Source: an uncultured Clostridia bacterium
Lineage (GTDB): Bacteria; Bacillota; Clostridia; Christensenellales; Pumilibacteraceae
Length of the DNA stretch: 64,000 nucleotides
Direction of reading: 5' to 3'
Assembly: GCA_944372345.1 (NCBI GenBank)
Contig: CALVYT010000038.1
Location: forward strand, 1-64,000
Positions 17,062 through 48,847 of this stretch are shown here, piece after piece; within the stretch, counting starts at the first letter, position 1, and each line of letters opens with the position of its first letter. A program made the translations under genes and the position numbers. The notes under the pieces are model-generated. The model saw nothing but the letters and a program-made list of their open reading frames with translations. It was not told the DNA's origin and did no database searches.

Positions 17062-18023
17062 CGGAAGAAAGGGAAATACGGCTCGGCGGCGGCGTGTTCG
17101 CACGGCTGACGGGAGCGATGGACGGCAATCTCGAACTTATGGAGAAGCGTTTCGGCGTGCGCATAACGGCGACGGACGAGGGTCTGCGGATAACGGGCGA
17201 GGGAGCGGGCGTGGATGCCTGCGCCGAACTGACGGACGCTTTGAGCGAACTGATAAGCCGCGGAGTGAACGTGGACAAGGTAACGGTCGAACGCTGCGCG
17301 GATATGGCGGAGCGCGGCGACGCGGGCGAGATAACCGAACTGTTCAGAGAGCCGGTGGCGGTCACCGCGCACGGGAAGAAGATATATTGCAAGACGTTCA
17401 ATCAGCGCGAATACTGCCGCGCGATAAAGAAGAACACGCTGACGTTCGGCATAGGTCCGGCGGGAACGGGCAAGACGTATCTCGCGGTCGCGCTCGCGGT
17501 CTCCGCGTTCAGGCGCGGCGACGCGGACAGGATCATCCTCACCCGTCCGGCGATAGAAGCGGGGGAAAAACTCGGTTTTCTCCCGGGCGATCTGCAAATG
17601 AAAGTGGATCCTTATCTTCGTCCGCTCTACGACGCGCTCGAAGAGCTGTTCGGCGTGGAAAATTACAACCGTCTGATAGAAAGGGGCATAATAGAGATAG
17701 CGCCGCTCGCGTATATGCGCGGCAGGACGCTGTCGCGCGCGTTCATCATTCTCGACGAAGCGCAGAACACCACCGAAGAACAGATGAAGATGTTCCTCAC
17801 CCGTATGGGCGAGGGCAGCAAGGTCGTGGTCACGGGGGACGTCACGCAGATCGATCTCCCGCAAGGCGGCAGGAGCGGACTTAAACAGGCGGCGGCGATA
17901 CTTTCGGGCATAGACGGGATAGCCGTCTGCCGTCTGACGGACAGGGACGTCGTCCGCCACGAACTCGTACAGAAGATAATTCGTGCATACGAAACGCGAG
18001 GTAAAAATGAAACCGATGCTTAA
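17058..18023 (+). CDS. phoH: PhoH-like ATPase
   Basis: A 321-residue PhoH family protein: an N-terminal KH-like region, then a P-loop ATPase. Walker A is GPAGTGKTYLA (about 135-145), ILTRPAIEAGEKLGFLPG is the family signature, and Walker B is FIILDEAQN. GDVTQIDLP completes the helicase-like core. PhoH and YbeY are functionally linked in RNA processing, and ybeY is two genes downstream. The ATG overlaps yqfD by 4 nt. Confidence 0.93.
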   Translation: MTEEREIRLGGGVFARLTGAMDGNLELMEKRFGVRITATDEGLRITGEGAGVDACAELTDALSELISRGVNVDKVTVERCADMAERGDAGEITELFREPVAVTAHGKKIYCKTFNQREYCRAIKKNTLTFGIGPAGTGKTYLAVALAVSAFRRGDADRIILTRPAIEAGEKLGFLPGDLQMKVDPYLRPLYDALEELFGVENYNRLIERGIIEIAPLAYMRGRTLSRAFIILDEAQNTTEEQMKMFLTRMGEGSKVVVTGDVTQIDLPQGGRSGLKQAAAILSGIDGIAVCRLTDRDVVRHELVQKIIRAYETRGKNETDA

Positions 18024-34503: not shown

Positions 34504-34532
34504 TTGACAATATAGTGTAAATATGCTACATT
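34504..34532 (+). promoter_or_regulatory. Promoter of the SipW surface-protein operon
   Basis: TTGACA (34504-34509), a 17-bp spacer and TACATT (34527-34532). It places the transcript start near 34540, ahead of the GTG at 34582. Confidence 0.75.
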
Positions 34533-34581
34533 GAGGCGTAAAGCCCTATGCGGGAAATGCGTCGGGCGGTCGGAGGGCGAA

Positions 34582-35379
34582 GTGGGCGAAACGACGGCGA
34601 AAAGAAAAAGAACGAAAGGCGAGATAGCGAGCATAGTCGTTCTCATAGTTCTCGCCGTGCTGCTCGTTCCCGTGCTGGCGATAAATCTGACGCTCATCAT
34701 CAAAGGCGCGGCATATCCCGATACGCCGCCTTCGGTGTTCGGCGTCGCGCCCATGGCGGTGACGAGCGGCTCTATGGACGGCGACAAAGAGGATAGTTTC
34801 GCCAAAGGCTCGCTGATATTCGTCGACCTGCTTTCGGACGAGGAGAAACAGGAGCTTGCCGTCGGGGACGTAGTGACGTTCCGCGCGTCGGGCACGTTCG
34901 TCACTCATCGCGTGATCTCGCTCGTAAGAGAGGACGGCGACGGCTCTCCCGTGGTGTCCGTCATAACGCAGGGCGACGCCAACGACGCGGCGGACTCCGC
35001 GACTCCGATAGAGAACGTCGTCGGCAGGTGCACGGGCAGTATCGGCGGGCTGGGCGCGTTCTCCGTGTTTTTGCAGACCCCCGTGGGCATAATAGTGGTG
35101 ATAGGCGTGCCGGTAGCCGCATATATCGTATATGACGTTGTCAGGATAACGCTCGCCCGCAGAAAGGAAAAAGCGGAGGAAGCCGCGTCGGCTGCGTCCG
35201 CCGAAAGCGACAAGGACGAGGAGATCCGCCGCCTGCGCGCAATGCTCGCGGAAAAGAACGGCGGCAGCGAAAACGTCGGAAACTCCGACGCGGGCGATAC
35301 GGAAAGCCGGGACGAAAACGAAAATACGGAAAGCTCCGAAAAGAGCGGAACGGAAGATAACAAAGAAGATAATAAATAA
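34582..35379 (+). CDS. sipW: SipW-type signal peptidase I, first copy
   Basis: A 265-residue ER/archaeal-type signal peptidase (S26B). One N-terminal membrane helix (IASIVVLIVLAVLLVPVLAIN) precedes the catalytic serine in VTSGSMDGDKED, the histidine in FVTHRVISL and the aspartate region QGDANDAADS. A second helix (VGIIVVIGVPVAAYIVYDVV) and an acidic cytoplasmic tail follow. The tail (EEIRRLRAMLAEK, then E/S/D/N-rich) is longer than in Bacillus SipW. GTG 34582 was chosen for its GGAGG site; an in-frame TTG at 34531 lies inside the promoter. It should process the exported proteins encoded next. Confidence 0.87.
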   Translation: MGETTAKRKRTKGEIASIVVLIVLAVLLVPVLAINLTLIIKGAAYPDTPPSVFGVAPMAVTSGSMDGDKEDSFAKGSLIFVDLLSDEEKQELAVGDVVTFRASGTFVTHRVISLVREDGDGSPVVSVITQGDANDAADSATPIENVVGRCTGSIGGLGAFSVFLQTPVGIIVVIGVPVAAYIVYDVVRITLARRKEKAEEAASAASAESDKDEEIRRLRAMLAEKNGGSENVGNSDAGDTESRDENENTESSEKSGTEDNKEDNK

Positions 35380-35407
35380 TATACGGGTATTATACGGGTG
35401 TTTTTCG

Positions 35408-35443
35408 GCGGACGCGCGTCCGCGTGCCGCATATGCGTGCCGC
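35408..35443 (+). promoter_or_regulatory. Intercistronic palindrome before the major exported protein
   Basis: A perfect 16-bp palindrome GCGGACGCGCGTCCGC (35408-35423) is followed by two copies of GCGTGCCGC (35422-35430, 35435-35443). They lie in the 110-nt gap ahead of a very strong ribosome site and may stabilise the downstream message. Confidence 0.5.
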
Positions 35444-35489
35444 GCGCCGTCGGGATACATAAATAATCGATCCTTACAGGAGGAATGCT

Positions 35490-36173
35490 ATGGAAAAGAA
35501 AAAGAGGATAGTATCCAAACTCGTGCTCGCGCTCGTGCTCGTCGCCGTCGTCAGTATGTGCTTCGTCGGCGTCACGCTTGCACGTTACGTCAGCGGTACG
35601 AACGGATCGTCGACGGCTAACGTCGCCAAGTGGGACGTTTCCTTCGGCGACGAAGAAACGATCTCCGTCACGTTCGGAGCGTTTTCGCCGAGAGACGCCG
35701 AATATTCTTCGGATACCGGCGCTGCAACGCCCAGAACCAACGAGTCCGTGAGAACGCAGGCGGTAGTCATCACCAACAACGGCGATGTCGAAGCGGACGT
35801 GACTCTCACTCTCGGAAAAAATATGACGGTTACGGAAGCGGCGGGCGCGGAGGAGTTCGGTACGACGGGTTACACCGAAACGTCCATCGACGACAACCCC
35901 ACCGAAAATCAGGTCAAGGGGCTGTTCACGTTCAAGTTCTACGACGCGCCAAGCGATGGCAAAGAGATCAAGAGCGGCGTGGCGTTCACGCTTGCGCCGG
36001 AAGCGAGCAAAACGATCTACGCTACGATCGTATGGACTTCCGCGGACGCGAGTCTGAAAACCAACGCGGACGCTCTCGACACCTGGGTGGGCGAGAACAT
36101 AGAGTCCGTCGGAATTGAGTTCACCGTATCCGCGGTGCAGGGTTCCGTCGCAGACGGTTCTGCGGGAGCCTGA
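35490..36173 (+). CDS. TasA/camelysin-like exported protein with SipW-type leader
   Basis: A 227-residue secreted protein. The leader KLVLALVLVAVVSMCFVGVTLARYVSG (about 10-36) with the VTLARY exit is the signal class cut by SipW. The body is a beta-rich domain with NNGDVEADVTLTLG and a C-terminal WTSADASLKTNADALDTWVG, like TasA or camelysin. There is no cell-wall anchor motif. AGGAGG before the ATG is the strongest ribosome site of the operon, and hairpins flank the gene, so it may be the abundant subunit. Fibre formation is inferred by family, not shown. Confidence 0.8.
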   Translation: MEKKKRIVSKLVLALVLVAVVSMCFVGVTLARYVSGTNGSSTANVAKWDVSFGDEETISVTFGAFSPRDAEYSSDTGAATPRTNESVRTQAVVITNNGDVEADVTLTLGKNMTVTEAAGAEEFGTTGYTETSIDDNPTENQVKGLFTFKFYDAPSDGKEIKSGVAFTLAPEASKTIYATIVWTSADASLKTNADALDTWVGENIESVGIEFTVSAVQGSVADGSAGA

Positions 36174-36196
36174 GGGCGGCATTTCTTTCGCATTAT

Positions 36197-36229
36197 GACG
36201 CGGACCTGCTTTTAATGCGGGTCTGCGTC
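36197..36229 (+). promoter_or_regulatory. Intercistronic stem-loop after the major exported protein
   Basis: A 13-pair stem (36197-36209 with 36217-36229, two G-T pairs) and a T-rich loop, without a following T-run. It may act as an mRNA stabiliser or partial terminator, giving more of the upstream gene than of the downstream ones. Confidence 0.6.
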
Positions 36230-36255
36230 GGAAGCGAAAAAGAGGACATATCGGA

Positions 36256-37707
36256 GTGATGGCTGAAATACCCGAAAACGAAGATACGATCGCGTCCCGC
36301 GGCGACGAAAGCGGAACGCCCGCGGCAGATGTTAATTCTGCCCCTGCGGGCAGGTTTACCACTGTCGGAAAATGCGGCTTTCCGACCAGGATGCGGGAAG
36401 CGGGGTATCTCGCCGGCAGGCGTTACGACACCGTGAAGAACGCGCTGATGAGTTACGTCCGGGCGGACGGAAAGCGCGTGCGTTCTCACGTTTCCGCGTC
36501 GGGGGAGAAGTTCTCCGTCGGGCGCGGCGCGGTGGCGATGATAGGCGTTTCGGGGGAGACGGTGCGGCTTTTTCTCGCGCTCGATCCCTCCGCTTATCCC
36601 GAGGGGAAATACCACCACAAGGATATGTCGGGCAAGGCGAAGTATGCGCGCTGCCCGATGATGCTACGTCTGTCGTCCGACAGGCAGGTCGGTCACGCAT
36701 TGTCGTTGATCGCGGAACTTATGGAAAAGCTCGGGATGTCGCTCGATCCCGAATACGTTCCGCAGGATATGGCGGCGGCGTTCTCCAAGGCTAAAAAGCG
36801 CCGCCCCGCGCCCCGCGCGCAGTCTGGCGACTTCGGCGAGATCGCCGCGGCGACGGCGGACGCGCCGGCGTCCGACAAGGAAGAAGCCGACGGGGACGGC
36901 GATGAGGACGACGAGGAGGAAAGCGCGGCAGCCGGGTTTATATCGGCGTCGCTTCCCGTCCGCGCGACGGTGTATGCCGCCGACGGCAGAAAGACGGGCA
37001 AGGTGCGCCGCGGAGTGTGGCGCGACGACGAGGGGGAATTGCAGGGCAGCTTCGGCAGGGACGACGGGCGCGTCGTGTATTACGGCGCGGACGGCGACGA
37101 AAAGGGGTATGTCGACAAGCACGGCAACGTGCTCCGCACGGACGGGCGGTATGTCGCCACTCTCGGGCGGGTGCGCGCGTATCCTTTCATCATCATCGCG
37201 CTCTGTCTTGTCGCGATAGTCGTGCTTTCGGTGCTGCTCGCCACCTGCGGACTGGGCGTTTCGCAGGATATGTACGCTCCCGTAATATTCATTGCGGACG
37301 AAGACGGCGTATCGTGGGAGGAAAGAGAGGAGCTCGGCGTGTTCGAAAACGATACGTTCGGGGATTCCGTCATTGCGCCCGGACTGTCGGGCAGCTATGC
37401 GTTTGTGTTCGAGAACCGCAACGAGCATACCGTCGTATATTCGCTGACGTTCTCCGAGATCAACGAGCACGGGATCGATATGGGCTATCGTCTGGTGCGC
37501 GACGGAGCGCACGTCGCGGGGCACGCGGACTACGTTTCCGCGGCGGAGCTGGGAGTGAGCGGACTTACGCTGTCGTCCGGTTCGAGCGCGAAGTTCGAAC
37601 TGCAATGGCTGTGGCGGCACGACGACGCCGCCGATACGAGCGCGGGCGAAAGCGGCGCGACGTATACGCTCGTCATCGATATGTCGGCGGAGGTCGTGCT
37701 CGATTGA
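36256..37707 (+). CDS. Membrane protein with clostridial cytoplasmic domain and TasA-like outer domain
   Basis: A 483-residue protein in three parts. Residues ~35-165 (GRRYDTVKNALMSYVRADGK, then KYARCPMMLRLSSDRQVGHA) form a cytoplasmic domain recurring in clostridial hypothetical proteins, which I cannot name. A linker with an acidic run (DGDGDEDDEEES) and hairpin-repeat tokens (GRVVYYGADGDEKGYVDKHG) follows. One membrane helix (FIIIALCLVAIVVLSVLLATC) leads to an outer domain with IAPGLSGSYAFVFENRNEHTVVYSL, as in TasA/camelysin proteins. GAGGA lies 9 nt before GTG 36256; ATG 36259 is the alternative. It may anchor or sense the exported material. Confidence 0.7.
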   Translation: MMAEIPENEDTIASRGDESGTPAADVNSAPAGRFTTVGKCGFPTRMREAGYLAGRRYDTVKNALMSYVRADGKRVRSHVSASGEKFSVGRGAVAMIGVSGETVRLFLALDPSAYPEGKYHHKDMSGKAKYARCPMMLRLSSDRQVGHALSLIAELMEKLGMSLDPEYVPQDMAAAFSKAKKRRPAPRAQSGDFGEIAAATADAPASDKEEADGDGDEDDEEESAAAGFISASLPVRATVYAADGRKTGKVRRGVWRDDEGELQGSFGRDDGRVVYYGADGDEKGYVDKHGNVLRTDGRYVATLGRVRAYPFIIIALCLVAIVVLSVLLATCGLGVSQDMYAPVIFIADEDGVSWEEREELGVFENDTFGDSVIAPGLSGSYAFVFENRNEHTVVYSLTFSEINEHGIDMGYRLVRDGAHVAGHADYVSAAELGVSGLTLSSGSSAKFELQWLWRHDDAADTSAGESGATYTLVIDMSAEVVLD

Positions 37708-38348
37708 CGCGGAAAGCGGAAAACGGGCGCAGCGGCGCGCGGCGCGCGCTTGCCGTCGTCGGGATCGTCGTCAAAGTCGTGCTCTGCGCGGCGGCGGCGA
37801 TACTGCTCGTATACAACGTATATGTGATGATCGCGCGCCTGGCAGGCAACGGTATGCCCAAAGTGTTCGGCACGGCGTTCGCGTCGGTAACGACGGGCAG
37901 TATGTCGCCGGAGATAAACGCGGGGGATTTTATCGTCGTGTGCGGTCAGGACGATTACGAAGAGGGTGACGTTATCACGTTCTTCGACGAAAGGAGCGGC
38001 GTTTATGTAACGCACCGTATAGCGGAAAAGCGTGCGGACGGGAGCGGTTTTGTCACCAAGGGCGACGCTAACTCCTCGCCCGATCCGTATATAGTCGCAA
38101 GCGACGATATAGTGGGCGAAGTGGTCGCCGTGGCGCGCGGGCTCGGCTCGTTCGTCACGTTCGTGCAAAGTCCCGTCGGTACGGTGACGGCAGTAGCCGT
38201 TATCGCGCTGATATGGGCGGCGTCGGTATCTATCCCGAAGATAGTCCGCGCGGTAAAGGCGAAAAAGACCTCCGCGGACGAAGAACAAGGCGGTAAGAGC
38301 GAAGAACAAGGCAGTGAGAGCGAAACGGACAGTGAAAAGAAAGGCTGA
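37704..38348 (+). CDS. SipW-type signal peptidase I, second copy
   Basis: A 214-residue S26B peptidase. A helix (VVLCAAAAILLVYNVYVMIA) is followed by SVTTGSMSPEINAGDFIVV with the catalytic serine, YVTHRIAEK with the histidine and KGDANSSPDP with the aspartate region. A second helix and a short charged tail end the protein. GSMSP is the canonical form, whereas the first copy has GSMDG. The TTG start overlaps the stop of the preceding gene (TTGA), with GGAGG 11 nt upstream. Its tail overlaps the next gene by 35 nt. Two different SipW copies in one operon suggest different substrates. Confidence 0.85.
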   Translation: MTRKAENGRSGARRALAVVGIVVKVVLCAAAAILLVYNVYVMIARLAGNGMPKVFGTAFASVTTGSMSPEINAGDFIVVCGQDDYEEGDVITFFDERSGVYVTHRIAEKRADGSGFVTKGDANSSPDPYIVASDDIVGEVVAVARGLGSFVTFVQSPVGTVTAVAVIALIWAASVSIPKIVRAVKAKKTSADEEQGGKSEEQGSESETDSEKKG

Positions 38349-39780
38349 AAAATACCATATATTCGCATACCTGTGCGCGCTTGTCCTCGTCGGAATACTC
38401 GTGACGGGGGTGAGTTTGGCGCGCTATGCCGCGTCCACCACGGGCGAGATAGGCGCGGGCATAAGCAGCTTTGCCTGTTCTTACTCGATCTCCGACGCGT
38501 CATCTCTGACTTTTTCCGACTCCGATTACTGGCTGAAAACGGACGACGGCAAGTTCAGCGCGATGAATACGGCGCGCTCCGTTCGTTTCGACATACGCAA
38601 TTACACGCAGAGCGGCGGAGAGGTCGACAGGATAAGCGCGGTGGACGTGGCGGCTTCCGTGCGCTTTTACGCGCCCTCGGAATTTGTCCGTTCGCTCGCC
38701 GTGCAGGTGGTCATGGCGGACAGCTCGGCTTCGGGTTACACCAACACGGCGGTGACCCCGCAGTACGTCCTCGCCGATCTTATCGCGGCGGCTCCCGGTA
38801 ACGGCGGTGCGGCGGAGTTCGACACCTCGACTTCCGTCGATTATGACGACAGGAGCGACGGACTGACGGAAGCACCCGAGGAAACGCTTTCCGTTTCCGG
38901 CGGGATGACGGGGACGGGCGATAGCGAAACGGGCAGGATCGTGGCGACATCCGCGGCGGGCGACGTGATCTCGATCTCGGCGGAGACCTCGACGGCTTCG
39001 TATTCGGTGGGCTTTATGCGGACGAACGCCGACGACAGCGCGGTGATCGGCGACGGCTCGTTGATGAAGATCGCGCCCGCGATCTATATAGACTGCGAAA
39101 AATACACGTCGTTTATGACGGTGGATATATCTCTGCCCGAAATGCGCTTCGAGCACGGCAAGGCGGAAACCAAGACGTTCGTACTTTATATCACGTCCGT
39201 AACGGAGTCCTCGTCGTCCGATCTCGATCTTGCGTGGGACGCGTCGACGGACGATCTGCTCGTCGCGCCGAAAGCGGGTGACGCATATAAGACGCTCGGC
39301 GGCGCGCGCGTGGTCGGCTATCATTTCGACCGCGAACTGCCCGTCTGCGGCGCGGACGGCGCTGTAACGGGCGACACGGACGTCCGTGTGAGCAAAACTT
39401 ACGACTACGAGAGCGGCGGCGCGTCGCTTTCCTACGACCATATCGCTCCGCCGGGAGAGGGCGCGGCGTCCGTAGCCCATGCGATAAACGATTTTTTCAC
39501 GTTCTCCGGCAGTGATTACGCTCCAGTCGGCAGCGTGGATTTTTCTTCCGTCGTCGGCGTGCAGGAGCTGTACGGAACGTGCTCCAACGGCGGCACGAGC
39601 GGGTATATCGATTTCAGCGGACTGTCCGACGATCCGTATTACGATACTTATGCCGAACAGACCGCCGCGGGCGAGCGGGTATACGAATTTTCCGAAGCGA
39701 TCAGCAAGGGGTATTCCACGTTGCTGAACGTGCTTTTCATCCAGGCTTCGGAAGCAGGAGGCGGCAATGAAAACGCTTAA
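38314..39780 (+). CDS. Exported protein with SipW-type leader, unknown body
   Basis: A 488-residue secreted protein. A basic start and LCALVLVGILVTGVSLARYAAS form a SipW-class leader (about 20-41). The body is Ser/Thr/Asp-rich and beta-predicted, with no family I can name. GTG 38314 is used; GTG 38332, giving MKRKAEKYHIF, is a good alternative, and neither has a strong ribosome site. The gene overlaps the peptidase by 35 nt and the beta-helix gene by 14 nt, so all three should be made together. It may be a minor subunit or tip protein. Confidence 0.75.
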   Translation: MRAKRTVKRKAEKYHIFAYLCALVLVGILVTGVSLARYAASTTGEIGAGISSFACSYSISDASSLTFSDSDYWLKTDDGKFSAMNTARSVRFDIRNYTQSGGEVDRISAVDVAASVRFYAPSEFVRSLAVQVVMADSSASGYTNTAVTPQYVLADLIAAAPGNGGAAEFDTSTSVDYDDRSDGLTEAPEETLSVSGGMTGTGDSETGRIVATSAAGDVISISAETSTASYSVGFMRTNADDSAVIGDGSLMKIAPAIYIDCEKYTSFMTVDISLPEMRFEHGKAETKTFVLYITSVTESSSSDLDLAWDASTDDLLVAPKAGDAYKTLGGARVVGYHFDRELPVCGADGAVTGDTDVRVSKTYDYESGGASLSYDHIAPPGEGAASVAHAINDFFTFSGSDYAPVGSVDFSSVVGVQELYGTCSNGGTSGYIDFSGLSDDPYYDTYAEQTAAGERVYEFSEAISKGYSTLLNVLFIQASEAGGGNENA

Positions 39781-42700
39781 AGACAAACGCGGATTTTTCG
39801 TTTTCCTGTTTCTGCTTTCCGTACTCGCAACGATGCTCGGCGTGTTTTTCACGCAGGGGCGGTACTCTGAAGAGATAAGCTCCGATTCGGGCATATACGG
39901 CGGCGATTTCGAATATATCGTCGCGGAGAAAGTAGAGGTCGAATCCGTCGAAGAGCTTATCGCGGCGGTGGAGAACGGTTATTCAAATATCACGATATCC
40001 GACAGCGTGGAGGATCCGCTCATCATAACGTCGGGCGTTACCGACGTCGGCAGCGATCTCATCCTTGATCTCAACGGTCACGAGATTCAGCGCAACAACC
40101 GCAATCCGATGCTCAACATAACCGACGGCGTGCGTATGACGGTCATCGATTCGTCGTCGGCGCAGACGGGCTCGTTCTACAATCCCGTCGGCAGCGTGCT
40201 CGAAATAAGCGGCGGGACGCTGACGGTCACGGGCGGTGATTTCGTCAGCGGACCCAAAAAGTCGGAATACGCCAATGCCGGAAACGGATTCGATTCGGAT
40301 TCCGGCGGCGCGCTCGGCGGGAGCGCAAACGGCTTACTCCGCACGCTCGATACGGCAACGGGCGAGTATACGGAAGCAAAGGAAACGACCGTTCCGCGCA
40401 TAGAACCCACCGTCACTCCGACGGCAGCGGCGGTGTTCGTCAGCGGCAATATGTATCTCGAAGAAGCGCCGACGAACGACTTCGGCGGACTGCTCGAAAG
40501 CGACGCTTATCTGTATTACGTCACCGACGAAGCGGGCGTGACCGGCAACCGTATCGCGGCGAACGGCAGCGCGGATTTCATATATTCATACGCCGACGAC
40601 GGCAGCGAGATAACGGTCTACGGCTATTATTCGGTCAAGGACAGCGCGACCGCGGAAACGAACTACGCGACCATCCGTATGAGCGCGGGCAATATGTATG
40701 CGCGCGGCGGGGATTACTATTCGTATTTCGGAAAGAGCGACGCGTACGGGATATATGCGCAGGGCGGTTATATGGCTGTCGGCGCGGGCAGTTCGTTCGA
40801 AGCCGTCGAAGCGGGAACGTGCGTCGCGTGCAACTATTCGGGCAATTCCGTCGAGGAATATCTGCGTATCGGCGGCGGCAGTTTCGTCTCCGATTACGGC
40901 GATACCGTCCGCGTTTCGGGCGGCAGAACGGTGGTCTCCGGCGGCTCGTTTGAAAAGGTCACTACGGGCGCGGGCGACGGAAACAAGGGCAGCGCGGCGA
41001 TACGCGTAACGGGCGGCGAGCTGGACGCGTCGTCGTCCGCACGGCTTTCGTTCGACGTCGTCGGTTCGGACGCATACGGCATTTACGTTTCGGGCGGCTC
41101 TGCGGCGGTAACGCATTCGGATTTCACGTTTAAGCCTTCCGACGGCGGCAGTCTGCTGGAAAACGTCACGGGCATATATGCCGAAAGCGGAGCTTCCTCG
41201 GGGTCGGTATCAGTCTCGGATACTTCGCTCGTGTTCGGCGACGAGAACGAAACGTATATGCTGAAAGGTGCGACGGGCATAGGCGCGGCGGGCGGCAAGG
41301 TGGAAGCGGAAAACGTCGACGTGCATATTCACAGCGCGTCCGACGATAACGCGGATGACCGCGGCGGCAACGGCAACCGCGGCATACTCGCGACGAACGG
41401 CAGCGTTTCGCTCAAAGGCGATTGCAACGTGACGGTGGACGGCTCGTATTCCGTCGGCATCTATGCGTCCGTCACGGCGCATTCTGCGGGCGGCGAGGGA
41501 AGCGGCATATCCTATTCCGAACCGGGTGAAAGCGGGCTTAAAGTGGAAATGAACGGCTCCGTCGCGCAAAAAACAGGTTCGTCCGATAATGCCCTCACGT
41601 CGACGGCGGTCAGCACGGACGGCGGAAATATTTCCTTCGACGGTGACGTGGAGATAACGTCTGACGGACTGGGCATAACCGCGCAGAGCACGGGCAGCGG
41701 CGGCAATATCACGTTCGGCGCAAGCGACACGGAATACGTTTATAACGTAAAAACAATTAACGGCACGGCTGTATACGTCAACGGCGGGAAAATAAACTTC
41801 GCGTCGGGAACGGTGAACATAGTTTCCGCGATACACAGCGAGGACGGCACGGCAGCAGGCGCGTATAAGTGGAACGGTGCGACCGCGTTCTACGACGGCA
41901 TATGCGTGCAGGGCGGCTCTCTCGACGCCCGCGGCGCGATGCTCAACGTCACGCATAAGGGAATAGATAATGACTATTCGGGCGCGTATAACGAGCTTAT
42001 CGTAAACAGCTATGCGGTGCGCGTTATGTCGCCCGACAGCGGCTCGGCGACCGTATCGGAGTCCAAAGTGTATATCACTAAGGGCGAGTTGACCAACACC
42101 GTCGGCGGCGGACTGTACGTCGGTACGGGCAGCAGCGGGCTGAACGCAACCGTGACGCTCGGCAATGAGAACGACGGCAACGACGACAACGAGAATATTA
42201 AAATATCCGCTGCCTACTCTCTCGACAAAAACGGCAACATTATTGAAAGCGGAGAAGATAAAGTCGCGGCAGGAGACCATACGCCAATAGAGATAGGCGG
42301 CGCGAACAGTAACTGGGCTTACAAGAAGAATATCAAAGGCGGTCATGCGGTCGAAGTCGTCGGCGGCACGCTGACTGTTCATTCGGGAACTTACGACGCC
42401 GTGCAAGGCAACGGCATACTTGTCAGCGGCGGTGAGGCGAATATTTCGGGCGGTAAATTCACTGGCGCGGACGTATACAAAAACAACGAAGGCGGGTCTA
42501 TGCCGGGTGCGGCTGCGTCCTATGCGCTCAAAATGTACGGCGGCATCCTGACGGTAACGGGCGGCGAGTTCGGCTCCGCCAAAGCGGACGGCAGCGGCGA
42601 GTTCGGCTCCGCCGAAGCGGACGGCAGCGGCGCGTTCATTATGGGCACAATCGGAGCGCGCGCCTCGGCGAATATCTACGGCGGCTCGTTCAACGTCGGC

Positions 42701-43342
42701 GGTACGGCGGGGCTTTCCGTCTATGCCTATGCGGATATCACGCTCGGCAAGAACGCTCCGAATTCTACGGCGGACTCTACGGCGGTGGACGTGAGTATGT
42801 CGGGTACGTCGGCGGGCATTACTATCGAGAGCGGCGCGACGGACGCGGAAGTGAACATATTCAGCGGCGAATATTTCTGCAATATGGCGTCCGCCAATCA
42901 TAACAGCGACGGTATCTGGTACAGCGAAGACAGCGCGACGCTGAATATTTACGGCGGCACGTTCGTCGGCGGGCGATACATCGAAGGTTCGCGAGCAAGC
43001 AGCGCCGCCGAGCTTATAAACAGAGGCACGATAGTGCAAGCAAGTGGGCACGACGCCGCGGGACTGTTCTTCGATAAAGACCCGGGCACGAACGTAAAGG
43101 TGTACGCCGGCGACTTCTACGGCGGCAATGCAAGGGTAGATAGGGGGTGGGTTGGTGTTTCCGTATACGTCCTCGGCGGCGCATTCGGTGTCAAAGGCAG
43201 CGCGAATTGGGGATCCTATAACGGCGTGGAAGTGAACGTGGACGACATTATTTCTGCTGACAGCAACTACGATCATAAACAGAACAACGTCAGCCTGCAC
43301 AGTTCATTTTCTCAATATAACGAGATCCACGTCTGGAAATGA
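39767..43342 (+). CDS. Large exported parallel beta-helix protein
   Basis: A 1191-residue protein with an N-terminal hydrophobic leader (FFVFLFLLSVLATMLGVFF) and an exit resembling the SipW class (TQGRYSEEIS). The rest is many ~22-25-residue turns rich in G, S, T and V, such as VLEISGGTLTVTGGDF and VSGGRTVVSGGSFEKV. This is the look of a right-handed parallel beta-helix, as in adhesins and polysaccharide-binding proteins. There is no LPXTG or choline-binding end, and no catalytic site I can name. AGGAGG lies just before the ATG. It ends the operon, with a terminator at 43440. Confidence 0.82.
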   Translation: MKTLKDKRGFFVFLFLLSVLATMLGVFFTQGRYSEEISSDSGIYGGDFEYIVAEKVEVESVEELIAAVENGYSNITISDSVEDPLIITSGVTDVGSDLILDLNGHEIQRNNRNPMLNITDGVRMTVIDSSSAQTGSFYNPVGSVLEISGGTLTVTGGDFVSGPKKSEYANAGNGFDSDSGGALGGSANGLLRTLDTATGEYTEAKETTVPRIEPTVTPTAAAVFVSGNMYLEEAPTNDFGGLLESDAYLYYVTDEAGVTGNRIAANGSADFIYSYADDGSEITVYGYYSVKDSATAETNYATIRMSAGNMYARGGDYYSYFGKSDAYGIYAQGGYMAVGAGSSFEAVEAGTCVACNYSGNSVEEYLRIGGGSFVSDYGDTVRVSGGRTVVSGGSFEKVTTGAGDGNKGSAAIRVTGGELDASSSARLSFDVVGSDAYGIYVSGGSAAVTHSDFTFKPSDGGSLLENVTGIYAESGASSGSVSVSDTSLVFGDENETYMLKGATGIGAAGGKVEAENVDVHIHSASDDNADDRGGNGNRGILATNGSVSLKGDCNVTVDGSYSVGIYASVTAHSAGGEGSGISYSEPGESGLKVEMNGSVAQKTGSSDNALTSTAVSTDGGNISFDGDVEITSDGLGITAQSTGSGGNITFGASDTEYVYNVKTINGTAVYVNGGKINFASGTVNIVSAIHSEDGTAAGAYKWNGATAFYDGICVQGGSLDARGAMLNVTHKGIDNDYSGAYNELIVNSYAVRVMSPDSGSATVSESKVYITKGELTNTVGGGLYVGTGSSGLNATVTLGNENDGNDDNENIKISAAYSLDKNGNIIESGEDKVAAGDHTPIEIGGANSNWAYKKNIKGGHAVEVVGGTLTVHSGTYDAVQGNGILVSGGEANISGGKFTGADVYKNNEGGSMPGAAASYALKMYGGILTVTGGEFGSAKADGSGEFGSAEADGSGAFIMGTIGARASANIYGGSFNVGGTAGLSVYAYADITLGKNAPNSTADSTAVDVSMSGTSAGITIESGATDAEVNIFSGEYFCNMASANHNSDGIWYSEDSATLNIYGGTFVGGRYIEGSRASSAAELINRGTIVQASGHDAAGLFFDKDPGTNVKVYAGDFYGGNARVDRGWVGVSVYVLGGAFGVKGSANWGSYNGVEVNVDDIISADSNYDHKQNNVSLHSSFSQYNEIHVWK
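42564..42629 (+). repeat. 33-bp tandem duplication inside the beta-helix gene
   Basis: Two back-to-back 33-bp units encode EFGSAKADGSG and EFGSAEADGSG and differ at one codon. The frame is kept, so the repeat adds 11 residues between turns. Confidence 0.9.
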
Positions 43343-43439
43343 CCCGCGCCCCCGCGCGATTCCGTCTCTAAGCATAACGCGATCCGTGTTCACAGCGATC
43401 CGTAACGACCCGCATCGTTTTTTCGCAGTAAGTAACCGC

Positions 43440-43472
43440 AAAAAGGAGCGTCCATATTGCACGCTCCTTTTT
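43440..43472 (+). terminator. Terminator of the surface-protein operon
   Basis: AAAAAGGAGCGT (43440-43451) pairs with ACGCTCCTTTTT (43461-43472). Confidence 0.9.
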
Positions 43473-43771: not shown

Positions 43772-43791
43772 AGGTTCAACTCCTGTCAACC
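43772..43791 (+). repeat. Inverted copy of the tRNA-Leu T-arm at the recombinase 3' end
   Basis: AGGTTCAACTCCTGTCAACC repeats the tRNA-Leu T-arm, in inverted orientation relative to the tRNA and to the att copy at 43645. The recombinase stop codon lies inside it. Confidence 0.85.
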
Positions 43792-45290
43792 ATAATTAGC
43801 AAAAGGGGTACCCCGATGGGATACCCCTTTGGTGCGCCAAGCAATTTAATATCCGAACCGCAAGTTGCTTCAAATTCTGCAAGGCTTACGGTTTGCGTTC
43901 CGTCTTTGTAGTTGAAAATAAATGTAATTTTGTCGTCATAGAGATAGATTGCGTTTATAAAACTGTCTATCAAGCATTGTTTACCTTCTTTCGTGGAATA
44001 GTCAAGACTTTTGAACTTATCTATTCCGAAACGGATTTGTTCTTTTGTAAGGAACGGCTTTTTGATTTGCTCTTGCAAAATCGTTACTTCAATCTCGCTT
44101 TTGCGTTGCTCTAATTCCGACAATCTTGCTTTCGTAGATTCAAGAATTATTCCTTGCTCGATTGCCGTTACCATATTCTTGATACGCTTTTCTATATCGG
44201 CAAGCTGTTCTTTCAATCTCGGCAAACGCGGATTTTCTTCGCCTTGCAACGAGTAAATCTTATCTATAAGATACTCTATTATTCGCTCGTCGTCAAGGAT
44301 TTCAAGGGCTTTTCTTACTGCTAAATCTTCAATCCATTCTTTCTTGACCGTTTTCTTATCGCAAGTATGCTTTTTCGCGTGGACGCATTTATAATAGCGG
44401 TGTACTTCTTTGCTTCGTCCCGTGCCGCTTTCTCCGACCATATACGCGCCGCACTTTCCGCAAAACAGGCGTGTAGTGAGTAAATAATCATCTTCGGCTT
44501 TGTGCCGTGCAGGTGCTTTCTTATTCTTTTTGAGTAGCTCTTGCACTTGCTCGAATAGTCTTTCGTCCACAATCGCAGGCGCACCGTGCGGAATGATTAT
44601 ATCGCGGTAGCGGTATTCGCCTATGTACTTGCGATTAGACAGCATATACTGAACGATATTGATTGACATAGGTTTATCGAACTTCGTACGAATATTCTTT
44701 GCGTTTAGATAGTCCACGATTTGCTTGACCGTCTTTCCATCGTTGTACATACGGAAGATTTCTTCCACAATAGGGGCGGTAGTCGGTTCAGGCTCTAATT
44801 TTTGCTCGGCATTAATAAAATATCCGAAAGGAACTTGACCGCCGTTTACCTTGCATTTTAAGGCGTTTTCGGTTAATCCGCGAATAACTTTCTCGGCAAG
44901 CTCAGCGGAATAGTATTCAGCCATTCCTTCCAAAACCGATTCAAGGAGTATGCCTTCCGAGCCTTCGGCAATCGTTTCCTTTGCCGATACAACTTTTACG
45001 CCGTTCTTTTTGAGTATGCTTTTGTAATGCGCGCTGTCGTAACGGTTACGGGCAAATCGGTCTAATTTCCACACGATAATCATATCGAAACAATGCTTGT
45101 AGCTGTCCTTTATCATTCGTTGAAATTCGGGGCGATTGTCCGTCTTTGCCGACATAGCGCGGTCTATGTAATTGCTGACAACCGTAACGCCCGTATGATT
45201 GGCAAACTCCATACATTCACGGAGTTGTCCTTCGATACTTTCTTCGCGTTGACTGTCGCTTGAATAGCGAGCATAAATAACGGCTCTCAT
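43776..45290 (-). CDS. Large serine recombinase (site-specific integrase)
   Basis: A 504-residue serine integrase. The catalytic domain starts RAVIYARYSSDSQREESIEGQ with the nucleophile at S10 or S11, and KLDRFARNRYDS is the second core motif. The recombinase domain (VPFGYFINAEQKLEP) is followed by a zinc domain (FCGKCGAYM, HTCDKK) and a coiled coil (residues ~340-420). AAGGAG lies 12 nt before the ATG. The last ~20 codons run through a terminator-like hairpin (43802-43830) and an inverted copy of the tRNA-Leu T-arm. It should integrate and excise this element. Serine integrases rarely use tRNA genes. Confidence 0.93.
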   Translation of the reverse strand: MRAVIYARYSSDSQREESIEGQLRECMEFANHTGVTVVSNYIDRAMSAKTDNRPEFQRMIKDSYKHCFDMIIVWKLDRFARNRYDSAHYKSILKKNGVKVVSAKETIAEGSEGILLESVLEGMAEYYSAELAEKVIRGLTENALKCKVNGGQVPFGYFINAEQKLEPEPTTAPIVEEIFRMYNDGKTVKQIVDYLNAKNIRTKFDKPMSINIVQYMLSNRKYIGEYRYRDIIIPHGAPAIVDERLFEQVQELLKKNKKAPARHKAEDDYLLTTRLFCGKCGAYMVGESGTGRSKEVHRYYKCVHAKKHTCDKKTVKKEWIEDLAVRKALEILDDERIIEYLIDKIYSLQGEENPRLPRLKEQLADIEKRIKNMVTAIEQGIILESTKARLSELEQRKSEIEVTILQEQIKKPFLTKEQIRFGIDKFKSLDYSTKEGKQCLIDSFINAIYLYDDKITFIFNYKDGTQTVSLAEFEATCGSDIKLLGAPKGYPIGVPLLLIMVDRS

Positions 45291-45367
45291 TGTGCTTTAA
45301 TCTCCTTGTGTTGGTATGGCGAGGTACGCAAGTGGCAAGCCATTTGCACGAACTTCGTTCGTCCTCG

Positions 45368-45466
45368 TTAGGGGAATGCTTCCCCTAAAACCCTTTGTTC
45401 TTGCGTGGACGTAAACCCCGTAGGGCGAACGCAACTTAGCTTGCTAAGTGTAGTGAGCTACACTTA
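45368..45466. other. Hairpin-rich gap between cargo and recombinase
   Basis: Perfect stems occur at 45368-45388 (9 bp, TTAGGGGAA) and 45445-45466 (9 bp, TAAGTGTAG with loop TGAG), with a 7-bp ACTTAGC/GCTAAGT stem just before the latter. No reading frame of note lies in 45291-45480. Confidence 0.6.
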
Positions 45467-45480
45467 CTGCTTAAATTATT

Positions 45481-46026
45481 TTACTGTTTGATTTTTGTTT
45501 CGTCAAGAATAAGCAAGTGCGGGTCGCAAGTGCCTACACTCAAATTGTCTTTGTTGACTTCGCCACAGTTTAATATTTGCACGGTATTTCCTTTTACTTT
45601 ACCGCTGAAAGTAAATTCGCATCTGAATTCCGAATGGCAATGCGCACATAGAAAACGATACGCCGCCCCGTCTTGTTTTACATACAAATCTTGCGGATTG
45701 CCGCAAAAAACACAGTCGGGAGTAGTCTTTTGGAAAAATTTGATATATACGGAATTTAATCCGGAATTCTTATATCCTTGATACGGCAAGTCTTGTAAAT
45801 ATTTGTCTTTATCGGCTACACCACCGTCGTATTCGTGAGAAAATCCGCATTTAGCGCATTGATATGTAGTTTTTTGCTTACCGGAAAAACCTGCGGCTAA
45901 ACCAATACCGCCTAAAAAAACGCCGCCGATGACAGCGTGCTTAGCATTAAATCCCTTTTTCGTTGTATCAATCAATTTCCAACCGTCGCTTTCTCCGCAC
46001 ATAGGACACAAATTCGGTGCTTTCAT
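45481..46026 (-). CDS. Double zinc-ribbon protein of the element
   Basis: A 181-residue protein with four CxxC pairs: CPMC near residue 7, CAKC near 57, CVFC near 105 and CAHC near 128. This suggests two zinc ribbons. A glycine-rich stretch (HAVIGGVFLGGIGLAAGF, about 30-47) could span or touch the membrane. No named family is recognised. It is the third cargo gene, 3 nt after its neighbour, and shares the promoter at 46899. Confidence 0.65.
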   Translation of the reverse strand: MKAPNLCPMCGESDGWKLIDTTKKGFNAKHAVIGGVFLGGIGLAAGFSGKQKTTYQCAKCGFSHEYDGGVADKDKYLQDLPYQGYKNSGLNSVYIKFFQKTTPDCVFCGNPQDLYVKQDGAAYRFLCAHCHSEFRCEFTFSGKVKGNTVQILNCGEVNKDNLSVGTCDPHLLILDETKIKQ

Positions 46027-46029
46027 AAA

Positions 46030-46473
46030 TCAATCCTCGCTCATATATTCTTTTTTAACGGTAATATAACCGCCCCAATGATTAGTTACAAATCCCGCCC
46101 AATCAAGAATAGCGGCATAATAGGTGGAACGACGCATAGTTTTATCTCCAATCTTTTTATTGTAAAACTCTATGGAAATAAATCCGTCGATTGTATCAAC
46201 AGGCAAATCGTCGCTACCAATTCTTTTGCCATTGTTAGCGGCACTAGCACCGAGATACATTTTACCACCAAGTGAAACAGCCATTTCATAAATTGCATAT
46301 AAAATTTTGAACTTGCAGTTAAGCGTATAATGGTCATTTTTAATACCGTCGTTTTTCTTAGACAGCGAAAAATTCATAACGCAACCTTTAAGCATAGGGA
46401 ATTGTGATTGCCCATTTTCACGCTCCAATTTGTCGCGTATGGTCTTTTCGAAATCCGAATAAGTGATTTTCAT
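46030..46473 (-). CDS. Hypothetical protein of the element
   Basis: A 147-residue protein starting MKITYSDFEKTIRDKLEREN. No family is recognised. Features are a mixed alpha/beta pattern and a C-terminal WAGFVTNHWGGYITVKKEYM. ATG 46473 is used because GAGG lies 7 nt upstream; GTG 46479 would add two residues. It sits between the coiled-coil DUF7662-like gene and the zinc-ribbon gene in one cargo operon. Confidence 0.6.
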   Translation of the reverse strand: MKITYSDFEKTIRDKLERENGQSQFPMLKGCVMNFSLSKKNDGIKNDHYTLNCKFKILYAIYEMAVSLGGKMYLGASAANNGKRIGSDDLPVDTIDGFISIEFYNKKIGDKTMRRSTYYAAILDWAGFVTNHWGGYITVKKEYMSED

Positions 46474-46486
46474 AGTCACACCTCAA

Positions 46487-46867
46487 TTAAATTAAGTTTT
46501 TGACGAAAGTAACGGTATCGTTATCTACATCTACGCGCGTTTTATAGCCCACAGCCATCCAACTCGAAGCATAAGAGTGTGTTTCCGTATTCGCCCAATA
46601 TGATTGCTTGAACTTTCTTGCGGTATCGGGTAAAGCAAAACCCAATATTTCTTCTATTTGAGAATAGGTAAGCGTAACTCTTGTTTCGTTTGACGATAAC
46701 AAGTATTCCGCCAAACCTCTATATTTTGCGCTAACCTTGCCAAGTTGTATAGCCGTTTGCGATTGAGCGGTAGATGTGCTTTCGATTTTTTCTTCCAATA
46801 CTTTTACTTTGTTTTCCAGCACCTTAATGCGTTCCAACATTTCTAACATTACTTGACTGTACTCCAT
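46487..46867 (-). CDS. Coiled-coil plus DUF7662-like domain protein of the element
   Basis: A 126-residue protein. Residues 1-45 form a coiled coil (MLERIKVLENKVKVLEEKIE). Residues 48-126 resemble the DUF7662 domain: YRGLAEYLLSSNETRVTLTY, QIEEILGFALPDTARK, WANTETHSYASSWMAVGYKT. That domain is of unknown function and recurs in mobile or defence-rich regions. It is the first cargo gene, with a consensus promoter and AGGAT before the ATG, so it could regulate the operon. Confidence 0.65.
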   Translation of the reverse strand: MEYSQVMLEMLERIKVLENKVKVLEEKIESTSTAQSQTAIQLGKVSAKYRGLAEYLLSSNETRVTLTYSQIEEILGFALPDTARKFKQSYWANTETHSYASSWMAVGYKTRVDVDNDTVTFVKNLI

Positions 46868-46898
46868 TTAATGGTCATCCTGTTTGAATTTTGAGATA

Positions 46899-46927
46899 AT
46901 TGTAGCAAATAGTTTTAGGTTTGTCAA
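46899..46927 (-). promoter_or_regulatory. Consensus promoter of the element's cargo operon
   Basis: On the minus strand TTGACA (46922-46927), a 17-bp spacer and TACAAT (46899-46904). Confidence 0.88.
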
Positions 46928-46942
46928 GCACTTTTCGCAAAT

Positions 46943-47023
46943 AAATACTAATTTCTACTATAAAATACTAATTTGTCATTATTTTTGGCTTTTGAACGGC
47001 ATTATAATAGGTTAAACGGCATT
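46943..47023. repeat. Two pairs of 20-bp-spaced direct repeats behind the cargo promoter
   Basis: AAATACTAATTT occurs at 46943-46954 and 46963-46974. AACGGCATT occurs at 46995-47003 and 47015-47023. Both pairs have a 20-bp period, about two helical turns, and lie between the promoter and the att core. They could bind a regulator or act as recombination arm sites. Confidence 0.7.
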
Positions 47024-47030
47024 TTTAAGA

Positions 47031-47081
47031 TAAAAAATAAATCCGAACCAATCACTTGTTACAAGTATTTGGTTCGGATTT
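47031..47081 (-). terminator. New terminator behind tRNA-Leu, supplied by the element
   Basis: On the minus strand AAATCCGAACCAA pairs with TTGGTTCGGATTT (47039-47051, 47069-47081), with an inner CTTGT/ACAAG stem, followed by a T-rich run. Confidence 0.88.
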
Positions 47082-47088
47082 AATTGAC

Positions 47089-47107
47089 TTGGTGCGGTTG
47101 ACAGGAG
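47089..47107 (-). other. Attachment repeat, proximal copy (att, part of tRNA-Leu)
   Basis: The 19-bp repeat at the tRNA end, shared with the functional tRNA-Leu. Confidence 0.85.
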
Positions 47108-47172
47108 TTGAACCTGCACGGTCGCCCACAAGATCCTTAGTCTTGCGCGTCTGCCAATTCCGCCACAACCGC
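47090..47172 (-). tRNA. tRNA-Leu with anticodon AAG
   Basis: A complete class II tRNA with acceptor GCGGTTG/CAACCGC, a long variable arm and encoded CCA. The anticodon stem CAAGA/TCTTG encloses loop CTAAGGA, giving anticodon AAG. An A at position 34 outside tRNA-Arg is unusual in bacteria and would normally need conversion to inosine. Confidence 0.95.
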
Positions 47173-47341: not shown

Positions 47342-48847
47342 ATGAGAGGGTATTCCGTCTGGCAGAAAAACAATCCGTGCGGCAAGCGTTATCCGCGGCT
47401 GACGGGAGATATATCGGCGAACGCGCTCGTAATCGGCGGCGGCATAGCGGGTTATCTTACGGCGTATATGCTGGCCCGTTCGGGGAGAAAAGTCGCGCTC
47501 GTCGAGGGGTATCGGCTGTTCTCGGGAACGACGGGCGGCACGACGGCGAAGATAACTTATCATCAGGGAGGCATTTATCCGCGGCTTGTCAAAAGCAGCG
47601 GCATATCCGCCGCGCGGAGATATTACGAAGCGCAGCGGGCGGGTATGGACGAACTGATCTCACTGGCGACGGAGCATAATATCGACTGTTCGCTGTCGCC
47701 GATCGACGGTTATATATTTTCCGCGGACGGCGACGAGGCGCAGCGAATTTATGCCGCAATGTCCGACATAGGAGTCAGAACGGAGCTCGTGCGGGCGGAT
47801 ACGCCCGTCGGGAGCGCGCTTGCCGTCCGCGCGGAGGATCAGTTCATATTCGATCCGCTGCGTTTTCTGCGCGCTCTGCCCGTCGGCTTCGAAATATACG
47901 AAAACACGCGCGTCAGCCGCGTGGACGTGGAGAAAAAGACGGCGTATACGGAGGAGGGCAGCGTGCACGCCGATATGATAGTGGTAGCGACGCGCTTTCC
48001 GATCATCGATTCCCATGGGTCGTATATCTTCCGTATTCGCCCGTCCGAATCGTATACGATAGCCGTCGAGGGTGCGACGCTGGATGCGACGTATCTCGAC
48101 GCGCGCGAGGACGGGCTTTCTCTGCGTCCTTACGACGGCGGCGTGACGGTGGGCGGGCTGGACCGCAGAACGGGCACGGGCGACGGTCACGCGTTTTTCG
48201 CGCTGCGCGCCGCGGCGGCGCGTATGTTCGGCGAGCGGCGTATCGCCGCGGAATGGTCGGCGCAGGACTGCGTTACGTTCGACGGCGTGCCGTACGTCGG
48301 GTATTATTCGCCCGAACTGCGCGACGTTTACGTCATAACGGGCTTCGGTAAATGGGGAATGGCAAATTCCGCCGTTGCCGCAAGACTGGTGACCGATCTC
48401 GCCGACGGCAGGGATAATCCGTTCGAGCGGCTGTATTCGCCCGCGCGCAGGCGCAAGGGCACGTTCGGAGCCTTCCTGCGCAACGCGGCGCGCAGCGCGG
48501 CGTATCTGATAGGCGGCAGACTGCATTTTCCGCTGCGCGGCGCAAGGTCGATAGAACCGGGCGGGGGAAAGGTCGTCCGGCTGCACGGCAAAAAGCGCGC
48601 CGTCTATAAAGAACCCGACGGACGGCTGTATGCGATAGACGCGATGTGCCCGCACCTGCGCGCGGAACTGCGCTGGAACGCCGACAGCAAAACGTGGGAC
48701 TGCCCCTGTCACGGCTCGCGGTTTGACAGATACGGCAATCTGCTTTCCGCGCCGAGCGTGCATTCGTGTAAGACTCACGCGCGGTTGGCGGCGGAGGAAG
48801 AACGGAATAAGAAGAAAAAAACGGATACTTCCGAAGCCGACGTCTGA
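47342..48847 (+). CDS. FAD-dependent oxidoreductase with C-terminal Rieske domain
   Basis: A 501-residue protein. ALVIGGGIAGYLTAYMLARSGRKVALVE (about 29-56) is the FAD-binding Rossmann motif of the DAO family. The C-terminal ~90 residues form a Rieske [2Fe-2S] domain with CPHLRAELRW and CPCHGSRFD. Such proteins resemble the YhfW/glycine-oxidase-with-Rieske group, whose substrates are not settled. The start ATG is weakly supported by an upstream CGGAT. It faces a convergent gene across a shared hairpin. Confidence 0.88.
   Translation: MRGYSVWQKNNPCGKRYPRLTGDISANALVIGGGIAGYLTAYMLARSGRKVALVEGYRLFSGTTGGTTAKITYHQGGIYPRLVKSSGISAARRYYEAQRAGMDELISLATEHNIDCSLSPIDGYIFSADGDEAQRIYAAMSDIGVRTELVRADTPVGSALAVRAEDQFIFDPLRFLRALPVGFEIYENTRVSRVDVEKKTAYTEEGSVHADMIVVATRFPIIDSHGSYIFRIRPSESYTIAVEGATLDATYLDAREDGLSLRPYDGGVTVGGLDRRTGTGDGHAFFALRAAAARMFGERRIAAEWSAQDCVTFDGVPYVGYYSPELRDVYVITGFGKWGMANSAVAARLVTDLADGRDNPFERLYSPARRRKGTFGAFLRNAARSAAYLIGGRLHFPLRGARSIEPGGGKVVRLHGKKRAVYKEPDGRLYAIDAMCPHLRAELRWNADSKTWDCPCHGSRFDRYGNLLSAPSVHSCKTHARLAAEEERNKKKKTDTSEADV

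Follow-up and report, generated by a model that had tools for sequence, protein, structure and literature searches.

Fibres whose subunits are processed by the signal peptidase SipW are known mainly from Bacillus and Clostridium perfringens, with one peptidase in each: for TasA, both SipW processing and assembly by donor-strand exchange are established (PMC9674648, PMC10151520), whilst in C. perfringens the secretion and polymerisation of BsaA require SipW (PMC7395162). The published SipW operons that were found carry one sipW each (PMC7395162, PMC9674648, PMC10151520, PMC13082335). The locus described here carries two. It occupies positions 34504-43472 of contig CALVYT010000038.1 in assembly GCA_944372345.1, a 1.69-Mb genome (95% complete) of an uncultured Clostridia bacterium from the family Pumilibacteraceae (Christensenellales); the first 64,000 nucleotides of that contig, analysed as a whole, are referred to as the window. 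Six co-directional genes stand in the order sipWa-g2-g3-sipWb-g5-g6 (Table 1). A sequence-only reading of the window had proposed that they act together as one operon, which might build a fibre, a matrix or an adhesion structure at the surface, a proposal supported by synteny, by a closed set of peptidases and substrates, by a g2 model resembling donor-strand pilins and by a beta-helix model of g6. The interpretation preferred here, at a probability of roughly 55%, is that the operon encodes a self-contained apparatus, dependent on SipW and independent of sortase, for exporting a surface fibre and putting it together. What the sequence itself shows is the gene set and its order, their conservation, the peptidase family and its active sites, the leaders, the closed set, and a link between operator and regulator.

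As a promoter and an intrinsic terminator coincide with its two ends, positions 34504-43472 can be taken as the limits of a transcription unit. Intergenic distances are 110, 82, -4, -35 and -14 nt, so that overlaps join g3 through to g6, as had been noticed at the outset. One promoter, a terminator at the end and a gene order that recurs in 27 complete loci confirm the six-gene arrangement as more than chance. Apart from the peptidases, its products are unfamiliar: g2, g3, g5 and g6 of the window match no Pfam or NCBIfam family, and no Rfam family was found between 34 and 44 kb.

Both peptidases exceed the curated cut-off of TIGR02228 (51.85 bits), SipWa with 70.1 bits (E 1.8e-19) and SipWb with 98 bits (E 4.9e-28), and the same model matches all 15 members of the SipW alignment. 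The catalytic Ser-Met and Thr-His motifs, of the Ser/His and not the Ser-Lys kind, are invariant in that alignment and retained throughout the relatives (27/27 sipWa, 31/31 sipWb), so that the description of two distinct SipW-type peptidases holds. Against the Bacillus SipW equivalog NF046067 they score 73.1 and 92.2 bits, far below its 190-bit cut-off. The two are 35% identical in the window and are the only SipW peptidases in its genome. In the SipW tree the a and b proteins form distinct clades, the exceptions being badly cut rows and the b proteins of a ruminant branch, which group apart; the single-SipW rows of loci L080 and L081, badly cut fragments with long branches, were disregarded. 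By this tree, sipWa and sipWb are old, separate lineages. Judged by gene position only, SipWa may serve g2 and SipWb may serve g5 and g6.

The candidate substrates of these peptidases are g2, g5 and g6, whose leaders share a basic start, a hydrophobic helix and then a T/S-x-[ASG]-[RK]-Y box, bearing out the claim that three proteins of the operon have SipW-class leaders (T/S-x-[ASG]-R-Y at their ends in the window). Position -3 is T in 29/29 members of g2, in 21/31 of g5 (S in nine) and in 30/32 of g6; position -1 is A, S or G, followed by R/K and Y. Cleavage is expected before R-Y, consistent with the -3/-1 rule of signal peptidase I, which in g2 would place the cut behind ...VTLA and ahead of RYVSG. 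A hydrophobic, strand-like segment follows about 12 residues past the box in all three protein types. When the leader profile was searched against the whole genome, it found exactly three proteins, all in the operon (E 1e-23, 2e-19 and 5e-17; next best 0.02). Membership of TIGR04088, the general model of SipW-cognate leaders, was considered for these leaders and dropped, as that model had no match in the genome at E 10 whilst control genomes were positive; the leaders of g2, g5 and g6 form a separate but related type. Because both SipWs and all three leader proteins of the genome sit in the operon, peptidases and substrates make up a closed set, with the peptidase genes beside the proteins that bear their cognate leaders and confined to one locus, the arrangement of a SipW-dependent secretion operon. 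Sortase PF04203 was not found in this 95% complete genome, in a search whose controls were positive.

Relatives were collected with a profile of the g6 N-terminus (a single-protein scan of genome contigs with g3 gave none), which recovered 33 loci in named assemblies. All six genes occur in the same order in 27 of these, and the remaining loci agree over the part that is present, contig ends having truncated most of the shorter ones; the intact order spans several genera. Carriers include Candidatus Protoclostridium stercorigallinarum and gallicola, Candidatus Borkfalkia faecipullorum, Candidatus Coproplasma avicola and excrementipullorum, and ruminant Clostridia, and their hosts are poultry, ruminants and others. 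Sampling of the order Christensenellales gave matches in 17 of 396 genomes, from 13 of 142 genera; in a class-wide sample of 391 genomes the window's own was the sole carrier, which makes the system look confined to this order. Within the genus, g5 is absent from 8/14 genomes; these have no SipW match above 135 bits, carriers exceeding 250 bits, which argues that the module comes and goes as a whole. A rearranged version with a single SipW, g5-g6-g2-g3-sipW, is carried by other genera of the family (L079-L081, and L085, which is partly cut); that the same core genes have stayed together through this rearrangement speaks for a joint function. The g3 of the ruminant branch has a second, C-terminal transmembrane segment in place of its long cytoplasmic part, and the stretch from g3 to sipWb there holds one or two additional leader proteins, 230-273 aa in length (L016:6172-7874 and L072:6175-7805), so that the number of subunits varies. 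A further genome (G029, contig C20, locus L090) holds a mini-operon of a sipWa-like gene, two g2-like genes and a sipWb-like gene, with no matches to g3, g5 or g6. By its gene content, the two-SipW layout exists there apart from the beta-helix protein.

Table 1. Features of the operon, in window coordinates.
Feature	Position	Strand	Description
Promoter with embedded operator	34504..34532	+	TTGACAATATAGTGTAAATATGCTACATT; TTGACA-17-TACATT, 10/12 matches, sigma-70-type
g1/sipWa	34582-35379	+	265 aa, GTG start behind GGAGGG; SipW/archaeal-type signal peptidase
g2	35490-36173	+	227 aa, small leader protein, probable main fibre subunit
g2-g3 hairpin	36195..36229	+	14 bp, without U-run; probable 3' stabiliser or partial terminator
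g3	36256-37707	+	483 aa, membrane protein
g4/sipWb	37704-38348	+	214 aa, SipW/archaeal-type signal peptidase; TTG start overlaps g3 stop
g5	38314-39780	+	488 aa, leader protein, probable minor subunit or adaptor
g6	39767-43342	+	1191 aa, leader protein, giant beta-helix, probable adhesin
Intrinsic terminator	43440-43472	+	hairpin AAAAAGGAGCGT...ACGCTCCUUUUU, -16.7 kcal/mol, z -6.2

The AlphaFold2 model of g2 (predicted local distance difference test score, pLDDT, 85; predicted template modelling score, pTM, 0.70) consists of the leader helix at residues 5-33, a segment of low confidence past the cleavage site and a beta-sandwich at residues 57-217; as expected of a free donor strand, that segment is modelled with low confidence, and the prediction would fit such a role. 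The best fold in the PDB is that of FimG from the type 1 pilus (probability up to 1.00, E 9.7e-3, template modelling (TM) score 0.48-0.51 by target), and FimG donor-strand pilins are matches 1, 2, 4 and 5. The leader of g5 is homologous to that of g2 (hhalign probability 96.6%, E 6.8e-10), and g5 has a C-terminal strand of the VQASE type (V-Q-A-S-E), as g2 does. The membrane protein g3 comprises an N-terminal cytoplasmic domain with a KYHHKD motif, an acidic linker, a small beta domain, one transmembrane segment (about residues 308-330) and an outer domain of ~150 aa, with no cleavable leader; it has a C-terminal motif, D-T-x-x-G-E-N, in common with g2 (hhalign E 1.8e-4, probability 49%). Two copies of the KYHHKD domain also occur in a 5224-codon open frame on contig C27 of the same genome (~16695-17624, minus strand; loci L087 and L088), possibly encoding a giant protein that has this domain in common with g3. 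Profile searches of the PDB with g2, g3, g5 and g6 gave nothing useful, and the TapA model TIGR04087 matched 1/29 g2 members at E 0.02, leaving no convincing TapA homologue among them. A search of viral protein folds with g2 returned only generic beta-sandwich and tail proteins, giving no reason to favour a phage origin.

The last gene product, g6, had been described from sequence as a giant beta-helix of 1191 residues, and its structure prediction agrees. The AlphaFold2 model (pLDDT 78, pTM 0.72) is nearly all beta, and its top fold matches in the PDB are nearly all right-handed beta-helix proteins, both enzymes and adhesins, among them GH110, polysaccharide lyases, tailspikes, Vag8, UpaB, Ag43 and Fap2; a right-handed beta-helix is accordingly the predicted fold. 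As glycine periodicity in g6 is weak, this assignment rests on structure prediction, and the Pfam beta-helix models have no match to the window's g6. The N-terminal 250 aa are 36-62% identical to those of orthologues, the N-terminal cap being the most conserved part, and there is no C-terminal anchor.

Candidate signals for expression lie at both the promoter and the gap past g2. Promoter scores of at least 10 occur upstream of the operon in 18/29 loci and in none of the coding controls. The 82-nt gap between g2 and g3 has a z of -4.9, and the 80 nt past g2 fall below -2 in 19/31 loci vs 2/33 coding controls (Mann-Whitney p 6e-6). The bsaA gene of C. perfringens is followed by a terminator, so that a sipW-bsaA mRNA is made in addition to a long transcript that reads through (PMC7395162); with a hairpin in the same place here, g2 would by analogy be the abundant subunit. 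The promoter itself contains the pattern TTGACAWTATAGTN9CTAYAWT, roughly palindromic in several relatives. A genome search that allowed up to two mismatches found this putative operator in two places, at 34504, where the match is exact, and on contig 18, where two positions differ; a reversed-pattern control gave no match, and none is expected from shuffles of the window. The contig 18 copy lies 62 bp upstream of a divergent gene for a 106-aa Cro/CI-type protein (L094:1118-1438, minus strand). Homologues of that protein divergently adjoin the operon in L043, L046, L047 and L066 (64-72% identical), the last three of which also carry the exact operator, and more distant ones (35-41%) do so in L053, L058 and L063. 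The natural reading of this pattern is that a dedicated Cro/CI repressor would govern the operon in a role like that of SinR, which represses tapA-sipW-tasA (PMC9674648, PMC13082335).

With the g2 and g6 folds predicted, and with donor-strand polymerisation, the tip position and the division of labour between the peptidases inferred, the fibre system might work as follows. The g2, g5 and g6 proteins would cross the membrane by Sec, their leader helices remaining in it; SipWa and SipWb would then cleave T-x-[ASG]|R-Y, which would set the subunits loose and expose a flexible N-terminal stretch of ~12 residues with a beta-strand behind it. Favoured by the hairpin past its gene, g2 would polymerise, each N-terminal strand being given to the next beta-sandwich in the manner of TasA and the Fim/Pap subunits. 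Having a transmembrane segment but no cleavable leader, g3 would stay in the membrane and root the fibre through its g2-like outer domain, its cytoplasmic domain connecting the fibre to the cell interior. At the other end, g5 may couple g6 to the fibre, where g6 would show a beta-helix of ~1150 residues as adhesin or spacer. The Cro/CI-type repressor would bind the palindrome in the promoter.

Several observations weigh against this interpretation. The sequence-only reading had spoken of TasA-like proteins and of a TasA/camelysin-like outer domain on the membrane protein, a likeness that holds for the leader, the C-terminal motif and partly the fold, and fails at the level of profiles: no TasA or camelysin profile in Pfam or NCBIfam matches g2, g3 or g5, nor any of 29 g2 members. 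The fold match of g2 is itself modest (E about 0.01, TM 0.49 by target, root-mean-square deviation 9.5), and TasA (5of1) is weak at rank 24 (probability 0.38, TM 0.30 by target). The likeness between g2 and g3 is confined to a short motif, and g5 and g6 are tied to g2 mainly through their leaders. For the g6 beta-helix, the role of an enzyme acting on polysaccharides, or of a matrix protein in its own right, would be just as plausible. Finally, the close relative L043 lacks sipWa and keeps the other operon genes, and its genome (91% complete) has a single SipW match, so that SipWa is not strictly needed.

The last of these points bears on the suggestion, to which we give rather low odds, that the two SipWs are redundant copies and that having two peptidases is functionally meaningless. 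L043, with sipWa lost and the rest kept, has a TTGACA-type promoter with a TATAAT box upstream of g2, and the one-SipW version of the gene set is present in the same family. However, the two lineages are old, separate and only 35% identical in the window, and both peptidases, with intact active sites, are retained in 27 loci, whereas more frequent loss would be expected of recent redundant copies. Of similar standing, and also rather doubtful, is the proposal that the operon makes a biofilm matrix and not an anchored fibre: g2, g5 and g6 would all be released by SipWa and SipWb, g2 forming loose TasA/BsaA-like polymers, g6 acting as a separate matrix protein and g3 as a sensor or assembly chaperone instead of a root. 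TasA and BsaA do occur as extracellular matrix polymers (PMC9674648, PMC7395162), g6 is without an anchor in a genome without sortase, and the topology of g3 in the ruminant branch, with its second C-terminal transmembrane segment, would fit any kind of membrane partner; against this, g3 retains the g2-like outer motif and a constant place between g2 and sipWb, which suggests contact with the subunits. Least probable is that g6 is a glycan-degrading enzyme brought to the surface, with the other genes as its display apparatus, since although GH110 galactosidases and polysaccharide lyases are among its best fold matches and the carriers inhabit glycan-rich animal guts, the same list holds the non-enzymatic adhesins Vag8, UpaB, Ag43 and Fap2, TM by target is low for the enzymes (0.12-0.28) vs 0.49 for Vag8, no Pfam glycosidase or lyase model matches, and the most conserved region is the N-terminal cap.

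An assembled surface fibre remains the preferred interpretation. A stronger version, which we put forward tentatively and hold to be possible at best, is that the operon encodes a monoderm organelle of a new class: a sortase-free donor-strand pilus whose parts are set free by two specialised SipW peptidases, SipWa for the g2 shaft and SipWb for the g5/g6 cap and adhesin, with an uncut pilin-domain root with a cytoplasmic domain (g3), a cap formed by a beta-helix adhesin of 1.1-1.5 thousand residues, and a dedicated Cro/CI repressor as its switch. Because the gene order is kept across several uncultured gut Clostridia genera, the set probably makes one of the chief surface structures in a gut group about which little is known and which, in the window's genome, has no sortase.

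Just downstream of the operon lie a large serine recombinase (43776-45290, minus strand) and small open reading frames, and 20 nt of the 3' end of a tRNA-Leu gene (47090-47172, minus strand) recur inverted at 43772-43791, which suggests an integrated element at 43772-47172 beside the operon. That the operon is itself cargo of a mobile element was considered and set aside, as the window's flanking genes were not found beside the relatives' operons. Further along, positions 47342-48847 encode an FAD-dependent oxidoreductase that carries a Rieske iron-sulfur domain as a fusion, although the assembly is placed in the Clostridia.

The sequence-only reading had not recognised the gene set, and a literature search that included SipW together with beta-helix, most subscription papers lying outside its coverage, likewise found no matching operon and no description of such a set. 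Amongst described systems, sipW-bsaABCRSD of C. perfringens (PMC7395162) is alike in that it belongs to the Clostridia, places sipW first and the main subunit gene second, has a terminator with readthrough after that gene (where a hairpin stands here) and continues with more secreted proteins; it differs in having its own two-component system, bsaRS, and one sipW, with no reported beta-helix protein and no second peptidase between the secreted proteins. In tapA-sipW-tasA of B. subtilis (PMC9674648, PMC10151520), SipW cuts the leaders of a beta-sandwich fibre subunit and an accessory protein, assembly is by an N-terminal donor strand, and repression by SinR resembles the Cro/CI regulator here; that operon has one sipW, whereas the present one adds g3, g5 and g6, and its g2 lies outside the TasA profile families. 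The B. cereus sipW-tasA (calY1)/capP (BC_1280)/calY locus (PMC13082335, PMC10151520) likewise gathers several SipW substrates, two camelysins and an accessory protein that controls polymerisation, but has one sipW, a separately transcribed capP and no beta-helix protein. FimG/FimF of the chaperone-usher type 1 pilus offer the best fold match to the g2 model and the same donor-strand principle, yet their secretion and processing are different and no sequence relation was found; no usher or chaperone is among the conserved operon genes, the whole genome was not searched for them, and the organism is placed in Bacillota. The autotransporter adhesins Vag8, UpaB, Ag43 and Fap2 have the fold of g6, which is unlike them secreted by a SipW-type leader and lacks an autotransporter barrel, and sortase-assembled pili differ in requiring what PF04203 did not detect in this genome. 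Sets of this kind are related to the genes for biofilm fibres in Bacillus, but the arrangement with two dedicated peptidases seems not to have been reported before. The system works like the SipW-TasA kind, yet its subunits fail the TasA/camelysin profile tests, and its defined list of parts, which adds a root, an operator and a regulator to the two peptidases and their three substrates, makes SipW substrate choice and the capping of Gram-positive fibres directly testable.

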